Positions 31,442 through 59,194 of a stretch of 64,000 nucleotides of DNA are shown in pieces (position 1 is the first letter of the stretch; each line of letters starts with the position of its first letter). The position numbers and the translations under genes are program-made. Below the pieces are notes generated by a model that worked only from the letters and a program-made list of their open reading frames with translations, did not search any database and was not told the DNA's origin. This stretch comes from Phytoseiulus persimilis. Its lineage: Eukaryota; Arthropoda; Arachnida; Mesostigmata; Phytoseiidae. The DNA is taken from NCBI GenBank assembly GCA_037576195.1, contig CM075102.1, positions 16,302,745-16,366,744 of the forward strand. The letters run 5' to 3'.

Positions 31442-31706
31442 CGGAGTTGGGCACAATCATAATCATTATCATGATTATTAGTCACAATCAAAGTCAAAAA
31501 TCAGTTCCCCAAAAGTATGGCCAGATCGATCCCGGAATCACGTCCATGGACCCCGGTCGCCCACAAACCTCGTGTGCGTGTCATCCTTCCACCGGGTACT
31601 TGACTGTACCAGAAATAATCATGATGATGACTTGATAATGATCAGTGATCATACCCATGATTATGATGATTGATCCTAATCATGATCATGATTATGCCCG
31701 ATTCTG
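31442..31706. mobile_element. hAT-type MITE with AATCAT tandem arms
   Basis: The ends are inverted: CGGAGTTGGGCACAATCAT on the left and, reverse-complemented, CAGAATCGGGCATAATCAT on the right. Both resemble the hAT end CAGAGTTGGGCA. The subterminal DNA is a tandem AATCAT/ATGATT repeat. The core holds one copy of the GTATGGTCAGATCGA-type module near 31514-31555. The flanking 8-mers ACTCTTGG and ATCCCTGG agree at 5 of 8 positions, compatible with an old target duplication. It has no coding capacity. Confidence 0.6.
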
Positions 31707-45037: not shown

Positions 45038-46797
45038 CTTTGGGGCCTGTGGAAGTCTTGGGACGCGAGGTGGGATTTGGCAAATGCCGTCGCTGGATTC
45101 CTGATGGACGTCGAGATGCCTGGGCTGGACGATACGCTGCCCCAGACCCCGGTCCCAAGACCTTGATGCTCAGGGCGGACTGCCCCCTCCGCCCCCTCGC
45201 TACGCTAGTGGAGCGACCTCTGGGAACAAGAGAAGCGTTACCTAGAGCTGCTTACAAGTCACCTGTGGGGAACGAACTCCGTCTGCCCTCGCTAGGCTAA
45301 AGACTATGGCCTTGGGCCGACCGACGGCGTTAACGAATATTTCCAGCAGAATGAAATATTCATACTGATACTGCTCACCGACAAACCCTTCACGATGCCA
45401 GCTCCATTCATCGGCGGTCAATGTGAACACCGCCCCGGAATCGCGGAGACTGATCATCTCCTGCGCCAGGCATACGAAAGCTTTCCTGGAAAAGTTATAT
45501 ATTCACGGTCATGGTGAGCAGCAGAAACATCCAGCAATCAATCATTGACCGATCACTCCTTGTCGATTGGAGGGGAAGTTTCCTCCACTCACACTGCTTC
45601 TGCATCCGTCAGCTGCCTCGAGATGTTCTCGTTGATCACCCCGTGTTTCGCTCGCTCGAAGAGTTCTTTGATGTAGACTGACTTAAATGCATTCCCTGGA
45701 AAGCTAAGAAACGCAATCACGCTGGCGGTGTGCGAGCCTTTGCTTCGTTCTCCTCAGACGATGTGTCTCTCTTGCGCCGCCGTTATAGGCTAGTCTCACT
45801 CCTTGCATTCAAAAATCATTCCAACGAATCGATCTCTTTTTTTCATCGTTGATCGCAACTGACTTATCACGGGGACAGGGCTCCCGTCGGTTACGAGACG
45901 CCCTCTGGCTCTCGAAGACCGTTTCTTCTCTGGTTTCCCGAGGCTGCTTTGCGACCTTCGGACTTCGAGGCTGAGGCTGCTTCTGATGCAGACGACCTCG
46001 CTACGTCGGTCTCGATGTCTTCGCTACCGTCGCATTGAACCGTCCTCGGCTTTCATTCTTCGTCCTCGTCACTCTAGTCTTCAACTCCAGACTCTTTCTC
46101 AGAACTAACTTCTTCAGGTAGAAATCGGGCGTGAACCTATACGGACACTGACACCACTATCGACGAGGGCGATTCAATCTACCTGATTTCAAAGAGTTGG
46201 AAAATGAGATACTTACACCTCGACCTCCTCGACACATGTGGGATGAAAACGTAAACACTGATCGAAGTAATTTACACTAATCATGCAACAAATTCACTTG
46301 TCGAAGTCCGGGAACACAGAGCGCTCCCGATTCACCGATGCACTGTTCGATGACAGTGAATGAGCGCGACCAACGAATAGATAGATGCACATGGAACTCA
46401 CTGTTGTAGACATCGCAGAGATGTTTGGATGAACATATTTATCTAACAAGAGAAGGTTCTGAATTGAACGACTCCGATTCCAACCAGATTGATTACAGAT
46501 CAGTAGGCCTACCAGAGATATGAGAAACGGCTGATGAAAGCCATCGTTTCCGAGCAACAGAGCCCTCAAAACTCGAAATTTAACATGGGCTCCTGTGGGA
46601 GCCTGCCGGATTGGTGGGAGCCGAAGCCAAGTGAGCTCTGAAAATCGTAGTGGAAGGTTTCTGGTATCGGGCAATGTCCGGAAAATCGCGCCACGCGATG
46701 GTGTTGTCACCAAAGCGCTGGTTTTAATTTCATATACAAACCGTCTGCGCTCTCCACGCGCTCTGTTTTTCTTTCTGTGGCATCACCTGGAGCTTTG
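45038..46797. other. No gene seen
   Basis: No recognisable coding family. It should hold the left end of the transposase element at 46.8 kb, but I could not define a terminal repeat. Confidence 0.35.
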
Positions 46798-47796
46798 ATG
46801 AGATCTTTGTTCGAAACCAGGAAAGTCGTTGAACCAGTCATTGTGATGTCGATCAGTCAATGCATTGGTGTCGCTGAAAATCAGCAACAGCTGGAGTCCT
46901 TGCATATCGCCCCAAGTGCTCGAGAAGACGCCCGGGAGATCGAGAAGAAACTAGCGGCAGATATCCTGTCAACGGTGAAGAACTTCACCGTAGACAAAGA
47001 TTCCGTAGACGTTGAGGAGGTCGAGGAACTGTACGAGTCGTACGGCCATGGCGACGAGTACGAGCCTCTGATCGACGACCTGCACGTGGAAGGACCGCAA
47101 GGACTGTTCACGTTCGGGCAAATCCGTCGGATCCTGGACTGCATTGATGCCAACCCAGACTGGACGTTCAAATCGATACAGCACAACTTCCCACGTGTAC
47201 GGCGATCGAACCATATCACGAGATTCAGATTCTACAGAGGACAAATGGGAACTCGGAGGGATTGGTTGATCAAGATATCCGAACACTGCAAGAAGATGTT
47301 CGACGTCTCGCGGGCGAATGGACTGATCATTCACCATCGGACCATAAACATGTCTCACACAGGAGAACGATTGACAACGGCGACCGTGAATGCTCTCGGA
47401 TCCCTAGCTCACAGTTCCACAATCCAACCTGTGATCAACATGGACGGAGCGCTCGTTGGAAAACTCTACGTCAACTTGAAAGAAACGGCCAATCAATTCG
47501 ATCCGCTCGTGGCGGTGGATAGTTCGGATTCCATGCCGAACTATCCAAATCTGTACGTCACCTGCCCAAAATCGGGAAAGTTGACGAAAGAGCTTGTCCG
47601 CACGTGGAGTCAGAGCGTCTTCAAGGACATCGTGGATCGCTTGCATGACAACAGATGTGTCCTGTTCGTAGACTCCTTGGGAGGCCACAACGATCAAGAA
47701 CTCTACAACATCCCGGGGAAAGTCGTCGCAGTGAAAGTTTTTCCTGCCGGTTCAACGAGCTTCGTGCAACCTCTCGATCTTGACTGTTTCCGATAG
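46798..47796 (+). CDS. pogo/Tigger-like DDE transposase, nearly full length
   Basis: A frame of 332 codons from ATG 46798. The N-terminal half has an HTH-like region (TFGQIRRILDCI through FKSIQHNFPRVRRS). The catalytic half has INMDGALVGKLYV (Asp codon at 47443), LFVDSLGGHND (Asp at 47671) and STSFVQPLDLDCF (Asp at 47776). The second and third acids are 34 residues apart, and QPLD is the hallmark of the DDE_1 (pogo/Tigger/jerky) superfamily. The frame stops right after the third Asp, while the next codons in another frame (FQKLSDCQLRRS) look like the expected continuation. A late frameshift or stop has therefore cut the C-terminus. The DDD set is complete, but activity is doubtful. A tandem-unit inverted-repeat element follows directly. 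Confidence 0.85.
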   Translation: MRSLFETRKVVEPVIVMSISQCIGVAENQQQLESLHIAPSAREDAREIEKKLAADILSTVKNFTVDKDSVDVEEVEELYESYGHGDEYEPLIDDLHVEGPQGLFTFGQIRRILDCIDANPDWTFKSIQHNFPRVRRSNHITRFRFYRGQMGTRRDWLIKISEHCKKMFDVSRANGLIIHHRTINMSHTGERLTTATVNALGSLAHSSTIQPVINMDGALVGKLYVNLKETANQFDPLVAVDSSDSMPNYPNLYVTCPKSGKLTKELVRTWSQSVFKDIVDRLHDNRCVLFVDSLGGHNDQELYNIPGKVVAVKVFPAGSTSFVQPLDLDCFR

Positions 47797-47908
47797 TCGT
47801 TTCCAGAAGCTATCGGATTGCCAATTGAGGCGCTCCTTTCGGTGGGAGACGCTCCTTCTCATGATCCAAATCTCGGACAAGCTTCAACTGTCAGGGATCA
47901 AGACGTTC

Positions 47909-48772
47909 CGGCCCCTGAGACTTCGGCCCCAGACATTTCGGCCCCAAGACATTCCGGCTCCTGGACTTTTCGGCCCCAAGACATTCCGGCTCCTGGACTT
48001 TTCGGCTGCAAGACCTTCCGGCCCAAATACTTAAATCTCGGCGGACGTCTTCCCGAAAATGAGGCTCTGTGCAACCGTAGACCCACGCACGACCCGTTTA
48101 TTCCGGCTGAAGACGGGCGGTCTCACGGGCAGCCGTTGCGTTAGATCAGTGGTTCTCAAACTCCACTGACCCATCGACCCCCTAGGCGACTTCGTTGAAG
48201 TTTGTGGACTGCCGTCCCCCGAGGGGTCGACCGTCGACCCTTGATCCACCTACGTGGACGCCAAGAAGTATGGTCAAATCCACGCCGGCACCACCTCTGT
48301 GAATCGGAGATCGGCTATCGACCCCCAGGGGTCGATATCGACCACTTCGAGAACCACCGTGTTATATGAACAAAGTTTCCAGTCGCAGTGGATTTGACGG
48401 TATCTACTCATCACAAGGACTCACACAGGGGCTCCCACAAAGGCATAGAAAGCTAAAAAAGGAGAGCGATCAAGCTCGGTAGGACAAGAGGAAACGACAA
48501 CAATCTGTGTGAAACTCTGAGTCATCGCCGCATGATGGTTTCGGAATCTCATACTTCGTCACTGAATCCTAAGTCCCTGAGTTTCCAGGGGTTTCCTCTC
48601 TGCAAAATGCAGATATTCTTCTAGGGTGAAAGGCGAATGGAGGAAAAATGATGATGAATTAATGAACTTCAGCTGGAATCCGAAGATCGCGAGCGAGTTC
48701 GGGGCGAGGTGTCCGAGGCCGAAGAGTCTCGGAGCCGAAGTGTCTTGGAGCCGAAATGTCATGTACCGAACT
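47909..48772. mobile_element. Array-armed inverted-repeat element, 16-bp units
   Basis: The left arm (47909-48030) is about eight units of a CGGCCCCAAGACATTC-like 16-mer. The right arm (about 48696-48772) holds four or five units of the same 16-mer in reverse orientation. The interior has no coding capacity and contains a hAT MITE at 48147-48359. Inverted arms of short tandem units are the layout of Drosophila Foldback elements. No convincing target duplication was found. Confidence 0.6.
48147..48359. mobile_element. hAT MITE with CAGTGGTTCTCAA ends
   Basis: The left end reads CAGTGGTTCTCAAACT and the right end, reverse-complemented, CGGTGGTTCTCGAAGT, each followed by TCGACCCC-rich inverted sequence. 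This is the widespread animal hAT MITE end type. The flanking 8-mers CGTTAGAT and TGTTATAT agree at 6 of 8, consistent with an aged 8-bp target duplication. One diverged copy of the 45-bp type module lies near 48262-48300. Confidence 0.75.
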
Positions 48773-50090
48773 ATCAGGATGCCCGGACACAGGCGAGTCG
48801 CGAGACCACTGACTCCGAAAGCCGTCCGCTGATCTCCTTCCTGAGTGCGTCTATGTCCAGCTCTGAGGGCGGACGAGGTGAAGTTCGCCTTTGGGCGGCA
48901 ACGACGTATGCGGCCTGAACGCCAGCAACTTGAGGAGCTCCATTAGCGACAGAAGGACGTATAGTCTCTGTGCCCCCCCATCCCACGCTTTGAGGGACGA
49001 GTACGTCCCCAGGGACGACGCCGAACAGGAAGTCTTCGTGAGCGATAACGCCAAGGGTGCCAACCACCTCAGAACGCCGCTGGCCATAGTGGTAGGCAGA
49101 GTTGATCGCTTCCGATCATGAAGTACCACAAGAACTCGTAGATTTTTCCGATTTTGTCCGCAAAGAAACGCGTCGGATGAGCTCGTCCACAAGTTCGTTG
49201 TGTGATAAATTCATAGTCTAATAAGTTTGTTATCTGATGCGTTTTTCTCGGGAAACGAAATGGAAAAAAATGGTTAAAAATGGTTCGTTATCTGCGGGAT
49301 TTTAGGGTGTCTGCGCGCGAATAGGGAACGCTCCATATCAAGGAGGAAGGACACCGGAGCAGTCAGCACCCCGTTCGACCTTCGTGCAGTCCTTCGAGAG
49401 ACGGCCGAGCTCGGAGCATAGTCGTAAACCTCCCATTGGTCTTGACAGCTCTTCGATACCAGGCCGAAAACATTGCCCCCACAGGGTGGCTTTTCTAGGT
49501 CGGGAACTCTCGAACCCGATTTTTTTTGGTGACTTCTTCATTTTTCGGAATTCAAGAATACGTCGATTGAGGGCATCAAGGTAATTCTGTCGAGGTCATC
49601 CAAGAAGTGATCGGGAAGACGTCAAGTTTCATTGGATCGCACTCGACGGGATCGCGCAAAAAAACGACGAGGTCGAGTCCACTTCTTTATTGAAGCCTTC
49701 CCACTTGACCAATCTTGTTTTCCTCGCATGACCTCTCCCAACTATTCACCGGAGCGGGGTCGGGGGTATTTCTTGGAATTGGCCGAATTCTCTGGATATT
49801 GAGTTGCCGGGTCGATTCGTCGATCCCTGAAGTTTCACCGTAGAGACATATTCATCACACCCAGATGCTTTGTCTCGATGCACGACTCAATCAAGAAACT
49901 GTGAGATGACTAATTGATTTTTCCAAGCATAACCGTCGCCACCCCTCGATGAGCTGGACAAAGAGGCGAGCACACAAACAGTCACCACGAGCAGAATCCT
50001 GCAGCAAGTCCATTCCTTCGCGGAGGGCGCAGTCGTCCAGCAGAACGGAAACATCCGCTCGGGTTGAAGCTGTGAAGTCGTTCGGTTTTC
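48773..50090. other. No gene seen
   Basis: No coding family recognised. It contains the presumed promoter of the gustatory receptor. Confidence 0.35.
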
Positions 50091-51035
50091 ATGCAAAAAC
50101 TGACTTTGTTCCGTCTGTTGTGTGGATCGGGATGGCGCCCGATGACTCTGGTCATATGGCCGGCACTGGAGTTTATTGGCGTTTGCGTCCAAGTTCGCCT
50201 AGTTACAGATGCGTCTCGTCAGAATTTCAGGGGCGTCATGATGACTCTCATCAATATATTGGCGATCTTCCTGGGCGTATTGTCTAGGAGATGGGTTTCA
50301 CGGAACAAGAAGGTTCTCGAGGGGTTTTTCTACGTGACGCGCCGTCAAGTCACCGCTATCGAGCTATTACTGGGCGTTGTTTTTATATATTTTTTCCTGG
50401 AGCTGTGCTTCCTTCCCATGGGGCACGCAGCCTCGAGAAGAGCATACCTTCACATGGTTACCATTCCGCTCACGGTTTACCTAGTCATGTTCCGCTTCTT
50501 TTGGATCAACTTCATCCTGATGCTGTTCTTCGTTGACTTGCTCGTTGCCCTGCGAGGTTTTCCCCCACGGCAGCATCTGACGACCTACAAACACTGTTGT
50601 CAGTTGCTCGACTCGACGAATGTACTTCTCAGCGATCTACACGACTGGCTCCTATTGTATTCAGTGTTTTCTTTCGTCAATTTCGCATCTTCAGCCACGT
50701 TCTCCAAATGCTCTGTTCACCTCTGGTCGTTTTCTGCTGGTCTCAGTATTGCGATACCACACGGTGTTTTGATATATCTAGGGGACCGCATCGGGACGAT
50801 TATGTACGAGAAGAGGGCCCGAGTGCGACGGATGTGGCTCAAGGAAACCAGTCCCATTCATGAAGTTTTCACCATAATGAGTCACCGAAACGCTCTCGGA
50901 ATCAGATGGATGATCAATTCGGAAATCATGAATTTCTCCAGTGATTTCTTAGTATTTTCGAATGTTTTCACCTACGTGGGTCTGGTTATGACCACACCAG
51001 GTTTCTCCGAACACAGCCACCTTGCTCATTGCTGA
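50091..51035 (+). CDS. Gustatory receptor-like seven-helix protein
   Basis: A single exon of 314 codons from ATG. About seven hydrophobic segments are visible: near residues 18-36, 47-64, 86-110, 118-150, 184-203, 206-230 and 283-302. The end, VFTYVGLVMTT, resembles the TY..hh motif of the last helix of arthropod gustatory receptors. These are ligand-gated cation channels with an inverted topology in sensory neurons; the ligand is unknown. It is shorter than the usual 370-420 residues, mainly at the N-terminus, so an upstream exon may be missing or the copy may be truncated. No stop or frameshift interrupts it. A clear relative, broken, lies at 44.1-44.3 kb on the other strand. Confidence 0.75.
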   Translation: MQKLTLFRLLCGSGWRPMTLVIWPALEFIGVCVQVRLVTDASRQNFRGVMMTLINILAIFLGVLSRRWVSRNKKVLEGFFYVTRRQVTAIELLLGVVFIYFFLELCFLPMGHAASRRAYLHMVTIPLTVYLVMFRFFWINFILMLFFVDLLVALRGFPPRQHLTTYKHCCQLLDSTNVLLSDLHDWLLLYSVFSFVNFASSATFSKCSVHLWSFSAGLSIAIPHGVLIYLGDRIGTIMYEKRARVRRMWLKETSPIHEVFTIMSHRNALGIRWMINSEIMNFSSDFLVFSNVFTYVGLVMTTPGFSEHSHLAHC

Positions 51036-51389
51036 GATCGGATTGACTCGGAAAGCGAAAATCGACTCCTCCTGTGATCAACTAACATCGACCTCGCGGC
51101 CGATGTCATGCAGATATATGCGAGCGGCGCAAAAACTTCTCTTATAGTGAGGTTCCTTAGTGGAACTCAGGATTGAGGTCACGCAGTCCATTTGTGAGAG
51201 CGATACTGCGTAGGCAGCACCAGTAATTGAGCACTGAAAGTTATCCGACTCACATGTTCCCACAAGAGACCACGCTGATCTAGTGCTGGAAACTGTAGTG
51301 GAGGTGGAGGGAAGGAATTTTTCAGCGGTCAATGACGAGGGTTCTGGAGGGTTTGCGAAGGGGATCAGCTCCTGTACAGGAGAGATGTC
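51036..51389. other. No gene seen
   Basis: This is the 3' flank of the receptor; no repeat or coding signal was recognised. Confidence 0.35.
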
Positions 51390-51498
51390 GGATATCCTCG
51401 GCAAGAGTGAATCGAGCGAAAGCTACGGGCCGGACAACATACCAGCCGAGATACTCGAGGAAATCAACGAGGATGGCAAACATCTCAAGATCAGCTAG
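51390..51498 (+). pseudogene. Possible LINE reverse transcriptase scrap
   Basis: SYGPDNIPAEILEEINEDG resembles the start of the reverse transcriptase domain of non-LTR elements (..GPD.IP.E.L). Nothing else of the element is present, so the assignment rests on one motif. Confidence 0.4.
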
Positions 51499-51887
51499 GC
51501 TACCATCGGCATGCGGACTCTAGTGAGTTTAACCCATAAGTCCATGTTGACCATGATGATGGGTCTCGTGGAATATCCGAACCATGGTGACTATAGACGC
51601 GAGGGCGTTGTTGCCCTCGCTGCAATTCCGTGATATCCTCGAGGGTCGCGGTATATCTGTGTAACTCGGCGAAGGGTTCGATGGAGTTCCTGTCCTTCAA
51701 TATCAATCCTCATAGAAGTAGTCTCTTTCGATTTCACAGGATATATGGAACCTTGCTCTGGAGAAGATCGCGGATAATCTCGAGTGTCTGTGCGGGGCTC
51801 ACACGACCAAGAAGGTTGGGCTCAACTGGTCCATAGGGAACTCCAGCTGGGAGGATCGTCCGACCGTAGTGAGTCCCTCATGTCTTT

Positions 51888-52859
51888 GGTGAGTACCCAC
51901 GACCCCGAAAATTCGACCCCGAAACAAATGACCCCGAAAAGAATGATCCCGAAAAAACGACCCCGAAAACAGGGACCCCGAAATCCAGGACCCCGAAAAC
52001 CTCCTCTCCCAACAGGGGAGTGCTTGAAGCCGTTCTAGCGGGACTGAACTTTCGTTTCGTTCGGGTGGCTCTCTCCCGCACAACTGGTCAAAATACATAT
52101 AGATTGCAGGTTGACGAGCTTCAGTGTTGGACCAGAAAAGTGTGGTCAGATCGATCACGAAATCACCTCCTTAGACCCAGAAAAGTATGGTCAGATCGAT
52201 CCCGGAATCACCTCCTTGGCTTCCAGAAAAAGTGCGGACAAACAGACAAACTGACAAACTTACAGACGAAGCCGATTAAATATAGTAAGGATAGCAAACA
52301 CAGATGAGCTCCAATATTCTTGCTCCCGGATATGAGATCTCCTATCAAAGACTCGATTCTCTGAGAGAAAATCCCGATTGATCCCCTGCAGGAAGGAATT
52401 CAAGTGTTCTGCCACACGGACCCGAGGATTGATTCCGGGTATGAGCGGAGCATTTTCCTTCAAAACCTAACAGCGCCGAGAGACGAGTAGAGATGGTAAT
52501 TGAATTCACTCTGTCTTTGGCATTGATCTAGAGCAATCGCTTGCGGTTGAAACATCGTTGAGAGAGTCGAAAGTGGCTCTCCAATGAGACCCAGTGTTAT
52601 CTGACACTCTACCGACCTCCGTCATCACTCATGTGGAGGAATCCATCTATTTCAACTGGGACGGAGTGAGAGAGCAGGCTAGCAAAACAAAGCAACAGCT
52701 CTATCTCGCTAAGGCAGCGTTGACCGCTTCGATTTTGGGAGAGGGTGTTTTCGGGGACCTGGGTTTCGGGTTCTTCGATTTCGGGGTCGTTTGTTTCGGG
52801 ATCATCGTTTTCGGGGTCATGTGTTTCGGGGTCGAATTTTCGGGGTCCCGGACCATAAC
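51888..52859. mobile_element. Array-armed inverted-repeat element with 9-bp target duplication
   Basis: The left arm is seven units of GACCCCGAAAA plus 3-5 variable bases (51902-52010). The right arm (52740-52845) is the reverse complement, and the variable spacers occur in the same order in both arms, so the arms are one inverted repeat. The element is bracketed by the direct repeat CATGTCTTT (51879-51887 and 52860-52868). A 9-bp duplication with arms of short tandem units fits Foldback or Mutator-like elements. The interior has no ORF of note but carries two and a third copies of the 45-bp module. Confidence 0.8.
52133..52288 (+). repeat. 45-bp module, tandem, with AT-rich tail
   Basis: Two full 45-bp units start at 52133 and 52178, each with CAGAAAAGT.TGGTCAGATC and a later AATCACCTCC. 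A partial unit follows, then GCGGACAAACAGACAAACTG and an AAGCCGATTAAATATAGTA tail. The same tail follows the module at 58.55 kb. Confidence 0.8.
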
Positions 52860-53200
52860 CATGTCTTTCATCTCTGTGAGAAGCTACCTGATCACAGCTG
52901 TTCGGGATTTCTGCTCAGCTCCGGTTATCGATCACGACTGTCTCCGTCAGTCACGCGACCTTGTTTCCGTTTTGTGAGTGAGCCTGTTCTCCTCTGCTCG
53001 ATCACAGTTTCGATTGAGGGCGTCATCGGAATACTCCTCGTTCCTCTGTGGATTCGCAGCTCAAGGGCGAACACGCGAGGTGTCGCAATAATGCATGCAT
53101 CACAATCATAAACGATACAGTGGCGCGCGCACCAGCAGAGTCAGATTTCTATACCGTAACGGGAATTCGATCACCGTCTGAGCGATCATGAGTCATGGGT

Positions 53201-54946
53201 AGGGCCAAACGGTTATGCCTCAGATGCCAGAAACTCAGATGCCAGAATCTCAGATGCCAGAAACTCAGATGCCAGAAACTCAGATGCCAGAATGAAACCC
53301 TCTCCCGATCCCGGATGGATCCCCGCTAATTAAGCGGATTTGGGAGCAAAGCGTCTCCGACGTCTGCAACGAGCGCGAGTCATGCGGCAGACCCTTTGTA
53401 CATATGGTACACGCTGCACCGCACCCCCTGTGATTTATTGATGGTTTGCTGATGATGGCAACGAATGAATCATGATGAATGGAGGGACATTCGATGCATG
53501 TCTCCAATCTCGATCAGCGTGGACGTTCGGGGACTCGAGCTCCGGGGAAATAGAAAAGCGATCCTTCGCGCATTCCGAGCGGTCGCAGCCCCCTTCGCCG
53601 AAAGCTCGCTCGGCCTCAACTTGGCAACTTGGGCCGCTAGCTCGGCGATTCCTCACTCATGCACGGAGTTATGGGAGGAGTTACCTTCCTTTCTACTCGT
53701 CGCTAGCGAATCATCACTGTCAGTGACGGAGAGAGTGTAGGATTGAGGCGGGTCCGGAGACCCGCAATGAGGACGTCGTTGAGTTTTCCACGTCGATCGA
53801 CAATAATCACATGTCCGGGGTGGTTCTCAAGCTGATCCTGTTGGCCCAAGGAGGGTAACAGAGGTAGCCTGTGCTAGAACCTTTGGAGCTGTAGCTTTCC
53901 CCATCGAGCTCCGCGGTTCTGCCTAACTTCATTCGCGGCCTCCAATAACCCGCTGAATCAGCGGGGACCCATCCGCAGTCGGGGGAGTGTTCTATTCTGG
54001 CATCTGAGTTTCTGGCATCTTAGAGTCTGGCATCTGAGAGTCTGGCATCTGAGTTTCTGGCATCTGAGGCTACGCCGGCAAACTCCTAGCCCTAGTGGTT
54101 ATGCCTCAGATGCCAGAAACTCAGATGCCAGAATCTCAGATGCCAGAAACTCAGATGCCAGAAACTCAGATGCGAGAATGAAACCCTCTCCCGATTCCGG
54201 ATAGATCCCCGCTATTTAGGCGGATTTGGAAGCAAAGCGTCTCCGACGTCTGCAACAAGCGCGAGTCATGCGGCAGACCCTCCTCCACACCGTACATATG
54301 GTACACGCTGCACCGGACCCCCTGCGATTTATTGATGGTTTGCTGATGATGGCAATGAATGAATCATGATGAATGGATAGGACATTTGATGCATGTCTAC
54401 AATCTCGATCAGCGTGGACGCTTGGGGACTCGGGCTGCGGAGAAATGGAAAAGCGATCCTTCGCGCATTCCGAGCGGTTGCAGCCCCCTTCGCCGAAAGC
54501 TCGCTCAGCCTCAGCTCGGCTTTTGGGCCGGTAGCTCGGCGATTCCTCACTCAATGCAGGGAGTTAGGGAAGGAACTACCTTCCTTCTTACTCGTCGCTA
54601 GCGAATCATCACTGCCAGTGAAGGAGAGAGTGTAGGATTGAGGCGGGTCCGGAGACCCGCAATGAGGACGTCGCTGAGTTTCCCACGTCGATCGACAATA
54701 TTCGCATGTCCGGGGTGGTTCTCAAGCTGATCCTGTTGGCCCAAGGAGGGTAACAGAGGTAGCCGGTGCTAGAGTCATTGGAGCTGGAGCTTCCCCCACT
54801 GAGCTCCCCGGTTCTGCCTAACTTCATTCGCGGCCTCGAATAACCCGCCGAATCAGCGGGGACCCATCCGGAGTCGGGAGAGTGTTTTATTCTGGCATCT
54901 GAGTTTCTGCCATCTGAGTTTCTGGCATCTGAGGCCACGCCGCCCC
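53201..54946. mobile_element. Two tandem array-armed elements bracketed by a 10-bp direct repeat
   Basis: Two copies, about 53217-54070 and 54103-54935, repeat with a period of 886 bp. In each, the left arm is five 15-bp units of CTCAGATGCCAGAAA followed by about 50 bp with GGAT.GATCCCCGCT. The right arm is the reverse complement of the same. The pair as a whole lies between two copies of AGTCATGGGT (53191-53200 and 54947-54956), as expected of a target duplication around one composite insertion. The interior has no convincing coding frame. Confidence 0.8.
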
Positions 54947-54956
54947 AGTCATGGGT

Positions 54957-55999
54957 GTTCATCGCGGAATTTCTTCGAAACATTGGAGAGAATGCAGGGT
55001 GTAACCAACTGCAATTCTCGCTGTAACAGCGGAAGTTATATTCACTCCGACAAGCGCGGAAGGCGATTCGAATATATCACGGTGAAACGAAGTGTTCATG
55101 GAGCATAATCTGAACCTCCTCGTTGTTCTGGTGCAGTGAATTGCTATACTCCATTCGGCGTCTATTATCAGTGATTACTGATAACCTATCACGTTATGCC
55201 CCTACATATTGAAGGCAGAGGGGGCACGTGCCCGGGCTCGAAGCTGGCGGAGCGCTCAGCTAGGGGACGCAATGCTGAGGGGCGTGAGACCATGGTTGAC
55301 TTTTCTCCGTACCCGTGACCACTGAATAATCTTCACTCAACCCCATTATCATTGAAATGCCACACCAGATCCAGGACTGGGAAGACTCCAGTTTATCCTT
55401 TTTCTACGAATTGAATCCAGCCATGAAACACGAGCGACGCAAGCGATCTGTTGCCGTCGTGTTCGCCATGGGGGAAAGTTGAACTTCGGAGGACCACGAG
55501 GGAGATTTTGGGCACCGATTGCTCAAGCATCATCACACTACATCTTCCCCATTCTTCGTGAGCCGCTTCGAGAAGGTGCTTTGGGACGAGCCGGAGCCTC
55601 GAAAGCCAGGACTAAATCAAATTCGACAGAGAGTGGAAATAGTCGTTGCGGTTCTCCGGGGAAAATACGCCGAGTTCGAGATGTTCGGCGACGAGTCATG
55701 CGTCAACATCACCAGTCCCCGGAATGAATTCGAGTTGTTCGAAACATTTTACGGAGTCGATCTCACGATGGTCGTCTGCGTTACGCTCTCAAATAGTTTT
55801 TTATACTACGTTTCAAGCGTGAGAATCGAGTGTTATGAACACCTGAATTGTGCCGGAGCGAGGGACTCTGCGATTCTCCGACGGATGGAGGACCAGATCC
55901 TTTGGCTCGCTCTCGGAAATTCAGTTTTCCGAATCTACTAGGTCTCTCAAATGGGTGAGATACCATGAATGGGTTCATGGTATTCGTCGCTCAGTCTTT
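54957..55999. other. No assigned gene
   Basis: A plus-strand frame at 55519-55941 (140 codons) contains hydrophobic stretches but matches nothing I know. It runs up to the LINE remnant and may belong to another element. Confidence 0.3.
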
Positions 56000-56850
56000 T
56001 GCCCCACACGCAGCTCCAGGCTGGAGCCTCTCGAGGGAAACGGGATCCGCATAGAGGAGACGGCGAGATACCCTGGAGTCCTCATCGGAACAGACGTCAA
56101 GTTCAACGCACACGTTAGGAACGCCGTCTATAAAGCCTCAAAGGCCGCAGCAGACATAGCAAGGATGCTTCCGAGAGATTCACGGAGCTTCAGAGGGACA
56201 GAGACACGTGCTCTCTACCCTGGTGGAGTCGATAGTCCTCCACGCGGTCCCCGTCAGGGCCCCACCGCAATGAAAGTGCCGAAAGACAAATAACTGCTCG
56301 AACGTACCCAACGCGCAATGGCGGTAAGGACGACGCGAGCCCACCGCAAGAGCAGTACCATGGTCATTACTGGCCCAGAAGTGGGCCCGACTTTGGCAAG
56401 AATCGAAGAAGGAGTCGCACCCTACGACGCTGAGGAGGGGCAGCAAAACAAAGAAGCAGACGAGGCTATAAAGGCAGAGACGATCACCACATGGCAAGCT
56501 CAATGGACCAAGGCCTGGACACACAAGAGCAAACTCGATATCAGATAATGGTACCAGAGAAGCTTTGGAGAGCTTGATGACCATACGACTCAGATGCTCT
56601 CCGGGCACGGAGACTTCCGAGCATATCTCTGCGGCATCGGAAAATGCGGGCCCAAAACCTGTGTTCACTTGACGAGCGGTGTCGAACTTTCGACCCTTCA
56701 TTGCGATACATCCAGAGAACAAAGAGGAACAGTCGAAGCATTGGACATTCTCACCCTCGTCGAGGGAACGATTCAGAAGCACGGAGAATTGGAAGAAAAC
56801 CACCGACATTGTCACAAAGATCCTCAGAAGGAAAGAAGTCTTGGGTAAGA
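56000..56850 (+). pseudogene. R1-clade LINE, 3' end of ORF2, broken
   Basis: The frame encodes the end of the reverse transcriptase (GIRIEETARYPGVLIGTDVK, HVRNAVYKASKAA) and the linker LLERTQRAMAVRTTRAHR. A C-terminal block typical of R1-type elements follows: WQAQWTKAW.H, WYQRSFGELDDHTTQMLSGH, GDFRAYLCGIGKCG, and ENWKKTTDIVTKILRRKE in another frame. A TAA at 56546-56548 and at least two frameshifts break it. R1 elements copy themselves by target-primed reverse transcription; this is only a dead 3' fragment. Confidence 0.85.
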
Positions 56851-58282
56851 CAACAACAGTTCTTGATGAGACCGCATCGACCTTCGAGCAGTGTTAACCA
56901 TGCGAAGTTTAATAACAGAGGAATTTTGGACAGCTGAGCTCGTGTTGCACTGGACGCCACACAAAAACACCTAGATTAGTCTCGGTTCCCTGTCACTGCA
57001 AAGCAGAGGGAGAGTTTTTCAGACGATCCACCTCACTAGCAGGGTAATGGACCCGAAACGGATTTGGAGTCTTATCCCTGGCGTCCGGAAGGATTTTCAA
57101 CCTCCCTCCAAGGAAAAAAAAAAAGGCTGGGGCCCAGGGGTGCTCGAACTCTGGAAGAACAGAGTCTCACTCCTAAGAGCTCAAAAAATCCAGGGCCATC
57201 AGAATTACCCGCTGCCATCAAACAGTCTCAACGGCCTCCCTGTGCCTGATCGCAGCCCCCATCCCATGGTCTTTTCTGGTTGCTGAAAGGTTTGATATGA
57301 AATCTTCGTAATAAGAGAGGAGCGTGGTCGATGGTAATACGATCTTGACGGTTTTCGTACCTCTTGATCTTGATGACTTCAGTCCTGATAGTGCTCTTCG
57401 TCATTAGGTTACAGACTTTACCCAATCCTGCTTGAACTTATCCCGTAGTTTCCCCGTCGAGGAACCGACACAGGTATTCTTTCAAACGAAATGTCTACCC
57501 TGCCCGCAACCACCAACCACATGATTCCGCCAAGGAGGTCTCTGAACTTCGGCTGATTCGTTGGTCCTGCTGATTTGATTGAGTGGATGAATGCGTCAGA
57601 AGGGGCATTGGCGCAGCCGGGATTCTCCTTGGGGAGGGGGTGAGTTCTGTTTTCCGTCCGCCTACCTTCCACGCGTTCTGGAAAACCTCGAAGAAATCTT
57701 TGCTTTATCCTCTACCGAAACATTCATAGAGAATCCATGAATTCTATCCATTTATAGAGTCCAACGAGAATGGTCGGATCGCCATGTAAACAACAACAGG
57801 AAAGCTTGCGTTCGACTCCGAAGCTCAGAAGCGAGGCGTTGAGGTTTTTGTTCCTCATGTAATTGAAGAGCCCAGATGCAAAACTTCGCCACTACAAATT
57901 CCTAAAAGTCAAGTTGTCAGTCGGAAATTCACCGAACTGAGTTTCTATAACATTACTAGGCGCTTTCTTTGGCAACGCAAAAAGTGGAGGGAAACAAGGA
58001 GTGAAGGGTTTTCGAAAAAAACGCAAGATAACGCTATCGGAAATCGGTTGAGTTGGTTTCTGACTGACAACTCGACTTTCAAAAAATTGGAGTTACGACA
58101 TTTTGCAACTTGGCTCTCCAATCCAGGATCGATGGTCTTCATTGACCGCCTTCTTTTACCACATGACACCAGCCAACTGGAGCCGGCTGCGGTTCCTAGC
58201 GTAGAGGCACTTTCCTCTCTCTCTTCATTGGGCCAGTATCGTTTCTGAAGCAATCTTTGGCTTATCGGTACATGTTATCAGT
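56851..58282. other. No gene seen
   Basis: No coding family or element recognised. Confidence 0.35.
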
Positions 58283-58775
58283 CAGAGAGTCGAATCACTT
58301 TTGATTCGAATCAAGAAACATCGAATCAAAAGTGATTCGAATCAAGATCGATCATCTGATTCGAATCACACGATTCGAATCAAAATTTGATTCGAATCAT
58401 TTTCTGATTCGAATCCTTACTACATATAATCGGCTTAGTCCGGGACCAGTCTGACCATACTTTTCAAAAGCTGGAGGGGTGATTGCGAGTTGGGAAGCAA
58501 TGCTCAGATTGGTCTCGGAATCACCCCTCCAGAGTTGGAAAGTAATGTGCGGACAAACTGACAAACTAAGCCGATCATATATAGTAGGGATTCGAATCAG
58601 AAAATGACTCGAATCAAAATTTGATTCGAGGCACGTGATTCGAGTCCTCTGATTCGAATCAAAAATGATTCGAATCAGAATAATCGAATCAGAATGATTC
58701 GACTCAGAAGCTATCGAATCACGTGATTCGAATCCAATGATTCGAATCAAAATGATTCGAATCTGCCCAACTCTG
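58283..58775. mobile_element. hAT-type MITE with ATTCGAATC arms and perfect 8-bp target duplication
   Basis: The element lies between two copies of TTATCAGT (58275-58282 and 58776-58783). The right end, reverse-complemented, is CAGAGTTGGGCAGATTCGAA, a hAT-type end; the left end is a shortened CAGAGAGTCGAATCA. Both arms are dense tandem GATTCGAATC units. The core (about 58420-58587) is itself an inverted repeat beginning and ending with TACTA.ATATAATCGGCTTAG-like sequence, and carries the 45-bp type module in both orientations. It has no coding capacity. Confidence 0.88.
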
Positions 58776-59194
58776 TTATCAGTTTTCTGTGTAGCAGTTT
58801 GCTCGATACTGATCGAAGATTCTGACTGAAATTAAGGCATATTGTCGCAGATTGGAAAATGTCTCCAGCTGTCTCTGGAGTTTCTCTCGTTGGTTTTGCT
58901 CCAGCTTCATGAATATCACTTTGAAGCGCTTCATCGTGACTGTTAAGAGCTCGTGTTGTGGTTCGCACTTCGGCTCCTCGAAATCGACGTTTAATCGTTG
59001 GATCCTTCCTCCGGATGTTTATGAAGCCCTTGTAATGGATTGCGTATCAGCTTCTCGAATCTGACTCAGAACTGCGTCTTGTCTCGCAGACGGTCCTGCA
59101 CGCTCTTAGACACTCGAAAACGGTCTTGCGAATTCTCGAAGACGGCCTCGTAGGCGCTCGTAGACAATCGTATGCGTTGAATCATCCCTATTAA

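Follow-up and report, generated by a model that had tools for sequence, protein, structure and literature searches.

The closest described systems are Mutator-like elements (MULEs) of mosquitoes and nematodes. In Aedes aegypti, the FLYWCH domain is found in 13 of 14 families of Muta MULEs, which produce target duplications of 8-9 bp and have numerous non-autonomous derivatives. Muta1, mobile in yeast and termed a type-2 Foldback element, carries an imperfectly palindromic 10-bp terminal motif, followed by a 12-bp subterminal unit that is repeated nine times with spacers of 3-4 bp (PMC5225508). Tm1 of Meloidogyne is a Phantom-type FLYWCH-MULE with 14-bp tandem units, derivatives resembling miniature inverted-repeat transposable elements (MITEs) and the terminal motifs CGGTTAA and CCTACCC, which lie outside the inverted repeat (PMC3169594). 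Galileo, a member of the P superfamily in Drosophila, has Foldback-like arms that contain direct repeats, with THAP-finger sites in two of four long repeats that were confirmed by electrophoretic mobility shift assay (PMC3688188). VANDAL MULEs of Arabidopsis carry fast-diverging, family-specific tandem motifs that are bound by the element-encoded protein VANC (PMC10398659), and Rehavkus has a PHD finger in its transposase and a 9-bp target duplication (PMC6446971). The word 'tandem' is absent from the main text of a 2026 survey of arthropod MULEs (PMC13359780). In a literature search made without the organism name, no dedicated paper on the MULEs of the present genome (181 Mb, four large contigs) was recognised. 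A 64,000-nt stretch of this genome, Phytoseiulus persimilis contig C2:16302745-16366744 (the window), contains four elements, A, B, C1 and C2, with inverted arms of 14-16 bp tandem units at 47.9-54.9 kb. The architecture is already known from mosquitoes (Muta) and nematodes (Tm1); what deserves to be followed is that sister families here clearly combine one tip and related enzymes with a wholly changed arm unit.

Elements A, B, C1 and C2 are probably non-autonomous MULEs of the type-2 Foldback or Phantom kind, which would be mobilised in trans by FLYWCH-MULE proteins and whose arms would bind the predicted transposase. The arms were detected by Tandem Repeats Finder (TRF) and inverted-repeat searches of the window. 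Element A (47894..48768, + strand, 875 bp) has a left arm of eight units of 15-16 bp with the core CGGCYCC (47899..48024, + strand) and a right arm of inverted 16-bp units (48718..48768, - strand; TRF array 48718-48760). In element B (51888..52860, 973 bp), seven units GACCCCGAAA with a variable spacer of 4-5 bp, together 14-15 bp, form the left arm (51899..51999, + strand), and the right arm is inverted (52749..52847, - strand). Element C1 (53211..54076, 866 bp) has five 15-bp units CTCAGATGCCAGAAA on the left (53219..53292, + strand) and five inverted units on the right (53994..54068, - strand). Element C2 (54097..54941, 845 bp) has 15-bp units on the left (54105..54178, + strand) and three inverted units on the right (54890..54933, - strand). 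Units within each of the four pairs match at 0.85-1.0 in inverted and at only 0.40-0.60 in direct orientation. At period 10-40 and a TRF score of at least 60, 18 of 20 Markov-1 resampled windows were without an array and two had one. A sequence-only reading of this DNA had described tandem-unit arms on a common plan in three non-autonomous mobile families. The arms and their plan were recovered by both searches, and the mobile, non-autonomous character is borne out by 8-bp target duplications and by same-armed relatives that encode MULE proteins. The array of CTCAGATGCCAGAAA units at 53.2-54.9 kb is present as described; it belongs, however, not to a single element but to two neighbouring insertions, C1 and C2, which are 91.6% identical and 20 bp apart.

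Element B ends in GGTGAGTACCCAC and GGTTATGGTCCGG (minus strand) and lies between identical copies of ATGTCTTT (51880..51887 and 52861-52868). Element A, with the ends GGGATCAAGACG and CGGTACATGAC (minus strand), is flanked by AACTGTCA (47886..47893) and AACTATCA (48769-48776), which match at 7/8 positions; its borders are less certain because they were set with the help of the target duplications. C1 ends in GGTTATGCC and GGCGTAGCC (minus strand). Its left duplication GGCCAAAC (53203..53210) is matched on the right by GGC-AAAC (54077-54083), one base short, with an ungapped score of 5/8 and a one-base gap read by eye. C2 is flanked by GCCCTAGT (54089..54096) and GCCCCAGT (54942-54949; 7/8) and has the right end GGCGTGGCC (minus strand). 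The C termini are asymmetric: each of the 30 fetched C loci pairs GGTTATGCC with GGCGTAGCC at the opposite end, window C2 having one change. The sequence GTCATGGGT occurs in the window only at 53192-53200, just left of C1, and at 54948-54956, where it overlaps the right duplication of C2; this pairing is due either to chance or to a larger rearrangement.

An exact 8-bp target duplication was found in 27 of 30 fetched C copies; the remaining three are one copy with 7/8 (L034), window C1 and one copy with none (L029). The B border scan covered 27 of 30 B loci (L039-L065), of which 13 rows with both ends represent nine distinct elements; 14 loci without both termini visible stand outside this count. 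Seven of the nine have an exact 8-bp duplication, one has 7/8 and one 4/8. In a flank-swap control, exact duplications were obtained in 0/870 cases for C and 4/156 for B, the latter four stemming from two elements, each fetched as two loci. No strong consensus was found among the 36 exact target duplications (34 distinct) of B and C. For one C copy (L023), inserted in a 45-bp tandem repeat, L028 provides a paralogous empty site, in which the repeat runs through without interruption and the duplicated octamer occurs once. Copies of C are mostly near full length at 91-100% identity among the best 40 of 170 candidates scored. Five near-full and about a dozen partial B copies were found among the best 40 of 1377 candidates, many of which represent a repeat of ~160 bp inside B. 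For A, scoring of the best 40 of 437 candidates gave the window copy as the sole full-length match; four other loci (L071, L001, L002, L006) match it in their arms and subterminal DNA. A search with the A unit gave 135 sites versus 45 in the control and was not used for pair counts.

That the arrays are ordinary minisatellites, inverted by coincidence, has next to no probability. Arrays of similar period do occur elsewhere in the window, at 36.5 and 58.3 kb, but the 8-bp duplications, the empty site, the dispersed near-identical copies and the MULE-bearing versions speak against this explanation, and the target duplications together with the empty site refute it. Minisatellites without inverted partners, which the sequence-only reading had named as the outcome that would overturn it, were not what the targeted searches returned: the arrays form inverted pairs at element ends and are accompanied by 8-bp duplications.

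The genome contains at least 150 MULE-domain matches, as obtained by scoring 150 of 220 candidates; 147 of them exceed the family cut-off. The MULE domain PF10551 scores above cut-off in a relative of each family, namely L070 (C), L071 (A), L069 (B) and L075, which defines a new family F. The FLYWCH domain PF04500 does so in an exon of L070 and in L071, L074, L075 and L076, so that families A, C and F are covered. L070 is a 4315-bp C element with 7+7 units and the target duplication GTCTCGAG (8/8); it encodes an open 464-aa MULE frame and the FLYWCH exon. L071, an A element of 3.9 kb, has an array at either end and encodes FLYWCH and MULE in separate frames; its duplication GCATTCTA matches at 8/8, its borders having been set with the help of that duplication. 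L075 encodes FLYWCH and MULE and has the left end GGTTATGCC, units around CGTTTCCC and a duplication of 6/8, read by eye and shifted by one base. Among 138 family ends, compared with all 150 MULE matches, 15 have a MULE match within 4 kb inward on the same strand, none inward on the opposite strand and four outward. At C ends, nine of 86 have an inward MULE, at a distance of 2128-2734 bp. The ends comprise 86 of C (1-2 mismatches), 32 of A (0-2), 11 of B (0-1) and nine of F (0-1). The C-end pattern (113 sites versus 9 in the control) is one base too long, which inflates its mismatch counts; the 86 C ends were drawn from 100 of these sites. The A ends are 32 of 55 genome sites with the A terminus and first unit (2 in the reversed control), and the B ends 11 of 18 (control 3). 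The F-end pattern at three mismatches is little above control (51 versus 25), so only ends with 0-1 mismatches were kept.

The MULE domain in same-armed relatives and target duplications within 8-11 bp place the elements in the MULE superfamily. The combination of an N-terminal FLYWCH and a MULE domain, characteristic of Phantom, is present in A, C and F, an assignment that rests on domains, and the long inverted ends of tandem units correspond to type-2 Foldback elements. Two other assignments were rejected. For Rehavkus, no PHD finger is among the Pfam matches at E 0.01 and the duplications are 8 bp long; for Galileo and the P superfamily, the proteins give MULE and FLYWCH and no THAP or P-element match. 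The suggestion that one transposase type stands behind the arms agrees with the MULE domain PF10551, but not in the form of one enzyme tolerating every arm, as each family has its own transposase (28-56% identity among A, B, C and F over aligned catalytic parts).

Judged by their sequences, C, B and F are sister MULE families in which the catalytic domain and the 5' tip were kept while the arm unit was replaced. In their catalytic parts, the transposases are 52% (C-F), 56% (C-B) and 53% (F-B) identical, B being represented by its second gene piece. Over the aligned parts, the transposase of L071 (A) has 28-36% identity to those of B, C and F; for two MULEs in which no FLYWCH match was found, the corresponding values are 24-31%. 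The tips at the 5' gene end read GGTTATGCC in C, GGTTATGCC in F and GGTTATGGTCC in B, with GGTTATG in all three. The arm units, TCAGATGCCAGAAAC in C, GACCCCGAAAnnnnn in B and CGTTTCCCCGAnTCT in F, differ completely. The terminal motifs of B outside the arrays are GGTTATGGTCC and GGTGAGTACC. Those of A are (A)CGGTACATGAC and G(A/G)GATCA(C/A)GAC, whose similarity to the GG-starting motifs of B and C is less certain. The description of the three families as unrelated is ruled out by the 52-56% identity of the B, C and F catalytic parts and the identical 5' tip. It is also contradicted by the same-armed MULE-encoding relatives of A, B and C. A comparison of termini outside the arrays and of duplication lengths, as the sequence-only reading had proposed, gave GGTTATG and 8 bp as common to B and C, which also have the inner-edge motif CTCTCCC in common. 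In E, a diverged relative of B that lies in L075, the tip GGTTA is retained together with the inner edge CCTCCTCTCCCAAC, but the units have drifted to GAAGCCGAAAA, GAACCCGAAA and GAGCCCGAAAA (one end only in the DNA examined). Concerted drift of units would be expected to produce an intermediate of this kind.

Across 27 B units, taken from four arms, 10 core columns carry 1.1-2.0 bits and five spacer columns 0.15-0.57 bits. The pitch is first 14 bp and then 15 bp, with one later 14-bp step in one arm. Among the 40 A units, four of six arms begin with spacings of 15 and 15 bp and continue mostly with 16 bp, and one arm starts with 15 and 14. Within family C, the tips and two units are 95-100% identical between L070 and four non-autonomous copies, and the four innermost 5' units are 97-100% identical. 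The next 300 bp beside the arms are 81-83% identical, as are, at ~80%, the next 90 bp at the 3' end. Four of six chosen copies were compared fully; a fifth gives one value, 97.4%, which agrees. This conservation of tips and arms fits selection. Arms that serve as arrayed transposase-binding sites under selection would fit the pitch and core of B, the arm conservation of C and the precedent of Galileo.

The arms could instead be functionless by-products, their tandem units being made by slippage, hairpin repair and gene conversion and the transposase reading the tip only. This is unlikely. As slippage predicts, C arrays are nearly homogeneous (15 bp, with two 16-bp steps) and vary from three to seven units per arm in six arms. 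Moreover, L073, a MULE of the same genome with a 650-aa frame in which a FLYWCH match was not found, has plain inverted repeats of ~650 bp at 94-96% identity. However, B holds a 10-bp core and a 14/15-bp pitch despite its variable spacer, C arms are conserved like the tips although adjacent DNA is ~20% diverged, and arrays occur at both ends of A and C MULEs. Alternatively, protein binding to the arrays might serve a different role, for instance anti-silencing or the control of a promoter, by analogy with VANC on VANDAL repeats (PMC10398659). Related MULEs with family-specific tandem motifs match the VANDAL pattern, but the arrays are terminal and inverted, with a distance of 10-16 bp between tip and first unit core at seven measured ends, and they are kept in short gene-less elements. 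Pfam matches were absent from five additional open frames of L070, although these might encode a novel protein. This second explanation appears quite improbable.

Like the homogeneity of the C arrays and the plain repeats of L073, several further observations weigh against arms that are bound by FLYWCH-MULE transposases. No FLYWCH match was obtained for B, whose broken gene was searched in two pieces. The B-armed MULE element (contig C1:8990751-9000510, 9760 bp) has a duplication of 5/8; its MULE gene is broken, and frames of reverse-transcriptase and mariner type are nested within the element. In L075, the right array was found by TRF, and the left one is short and degenerate with irregular spacing. 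In the DNA examined, the FLYWCH MULEs L074 and L076 are flanked by an array on just one side, and the ends of L072 were not found. The right window arm of A is irregular, and the contrast between core and spacer is weaker in A and F. Because units were gathered by their match to a chosen core (at most three mismatches, or two in A and F), core columns are favoured; in B, where no unit was skipped, this bias should be small. Homogenisation without selection could also keep arms alike. The N-terminal piece of B is just 37-40% identical to C and F, one of ten protein pairs has a FLYWCH identity above that of MULE, and FLYWCH fingers may diverge fast anyway. As a separate observation, L076 (reverse strand) carries at 13-703 a 24-bp unit repeated 29 times upstream of its FLYWCH-MULE gene, with no inverted partner in 5.2 kb.

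With arms as transposase-binding sites, cleavage at the conserved short tip would most likely fall to the MULE domain, and reading of the arm unit to the FLYWCH finger. A series of in-register units would recruit several transposase molecules and make each end specific. Units would drift and homogenise along the array and between both arms. Such drift would be tolerated as long as finger and site continue to fit one another, and arms would thus change by family whereas tip, duplication length and catalytic domain stay. The best reading of the sequences is that arms turn over quickly between families and that they are probably bound by the transposase. A more specific and tentative proposal, held with rather less than even confidence, is that of a replaceable address code. 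The FLYWCH finger and the arrayed unit would co-diverge as lock and key, units would be swept by concerted evolution and families would be unable to cross-mobilise, with one cutting site (the GGTTATG tip) that is perhaps partly common to Tm1. Co-divergence predicts a lower identity in FLYWCH than in MULE, as was found in nine of ten pairs (43% versus 59% for C-F).

Further features of the window concern the inner parts and the neighbourhood of the elements. A 213-bp repeat (48147..48359), which presumably has hAT-like ends, is inserted in the core of A between CGTTAGAT and TGTTATAT (6/8). It is found at no fewer than 39 other genome places among the best 40 of 437 candidates scored, and the A flanks joined without it match L001, L002, L071 and L006/L007 across the junction. 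At 46651-47793, an open frame of 381 aa that encodes a DDE_1 transposase domain (PF03184) stops ~90 bp before the target duplication of A. The repeat of ~160 bp inside B (52135..52293) has dispersed copies that are mostly 83-89% identical. A 45-bp unit forms satellite-like tandem arrays in L028 (1-766) and L075 (3-224 and 568-688) and is, by eye, related both to the 45-bp repeat within B and to the core of an element at 58.3 kb. The latter (58286-58773) has palindromic units TGATTCGAATCA on both sides of its core, ends in TGCCCAACTC, is flanked on both sides by TGTTATCAGT (by eye) and is not evidently a MULE. The end TGCCCAACTC is found at 31444, 36311, 36672 and 58764, adjoining differing, mostly AT-rich repeats, and at none of the fetched loci. 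Two elements with this end have a 140-bp core in common (78%). The elements that share this end and bear arrays make up a second group, which is unclassified. An Rfam search of 46500-59000 at gathering thresholds gave no match.

The genome provides a natural experiment, with closely related transposases and the same tip joined to different arrayed units. The reading of Foldback-like arms by a transposase, in 2013 untested for Foldback and Phantom (PMC3688188), becomes testable, as does the question whether fast arm change isolates families from one another. Galileo is a precedent for arms as binding platforms, by analogy, since it has a P-element transposase, not a MULE, and its sites are not in every unit of a short-unit array. 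In VANDAL, VANC is an anti-silencing protein that binds non-coding regions, and the terminal inverted repeats (TIRs) are degenerate; the address code, if true, would parallel in animals, and within the transposase itself, the arms race between VANC and VANDAL motifs. Tm1 resembles the present elements, by eye, in its asymmetric terminal motifs outside the inverted repeat (here GGTTATGCC ... GGCTACGCC, top strand), and further in a purine-rich inner-edge motif, tandem units and MITE-like derivatives. It differs in its unit sequence and in duplications of 8-10 bp, mostly 9 (PMC3169594), compared with 8 here. With Muta, compared by plan and not by unit sequence, the elements have in common a short terminal motif, tandem units, a FLYWCH-MULE and the duplication length (8-9 bp in Muta, 8 bp here). 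Muta3 and Muta11, however, keep similar TIRs (76%; PMC5225508), whereas here three sister families combine the same 5' tip with different units.

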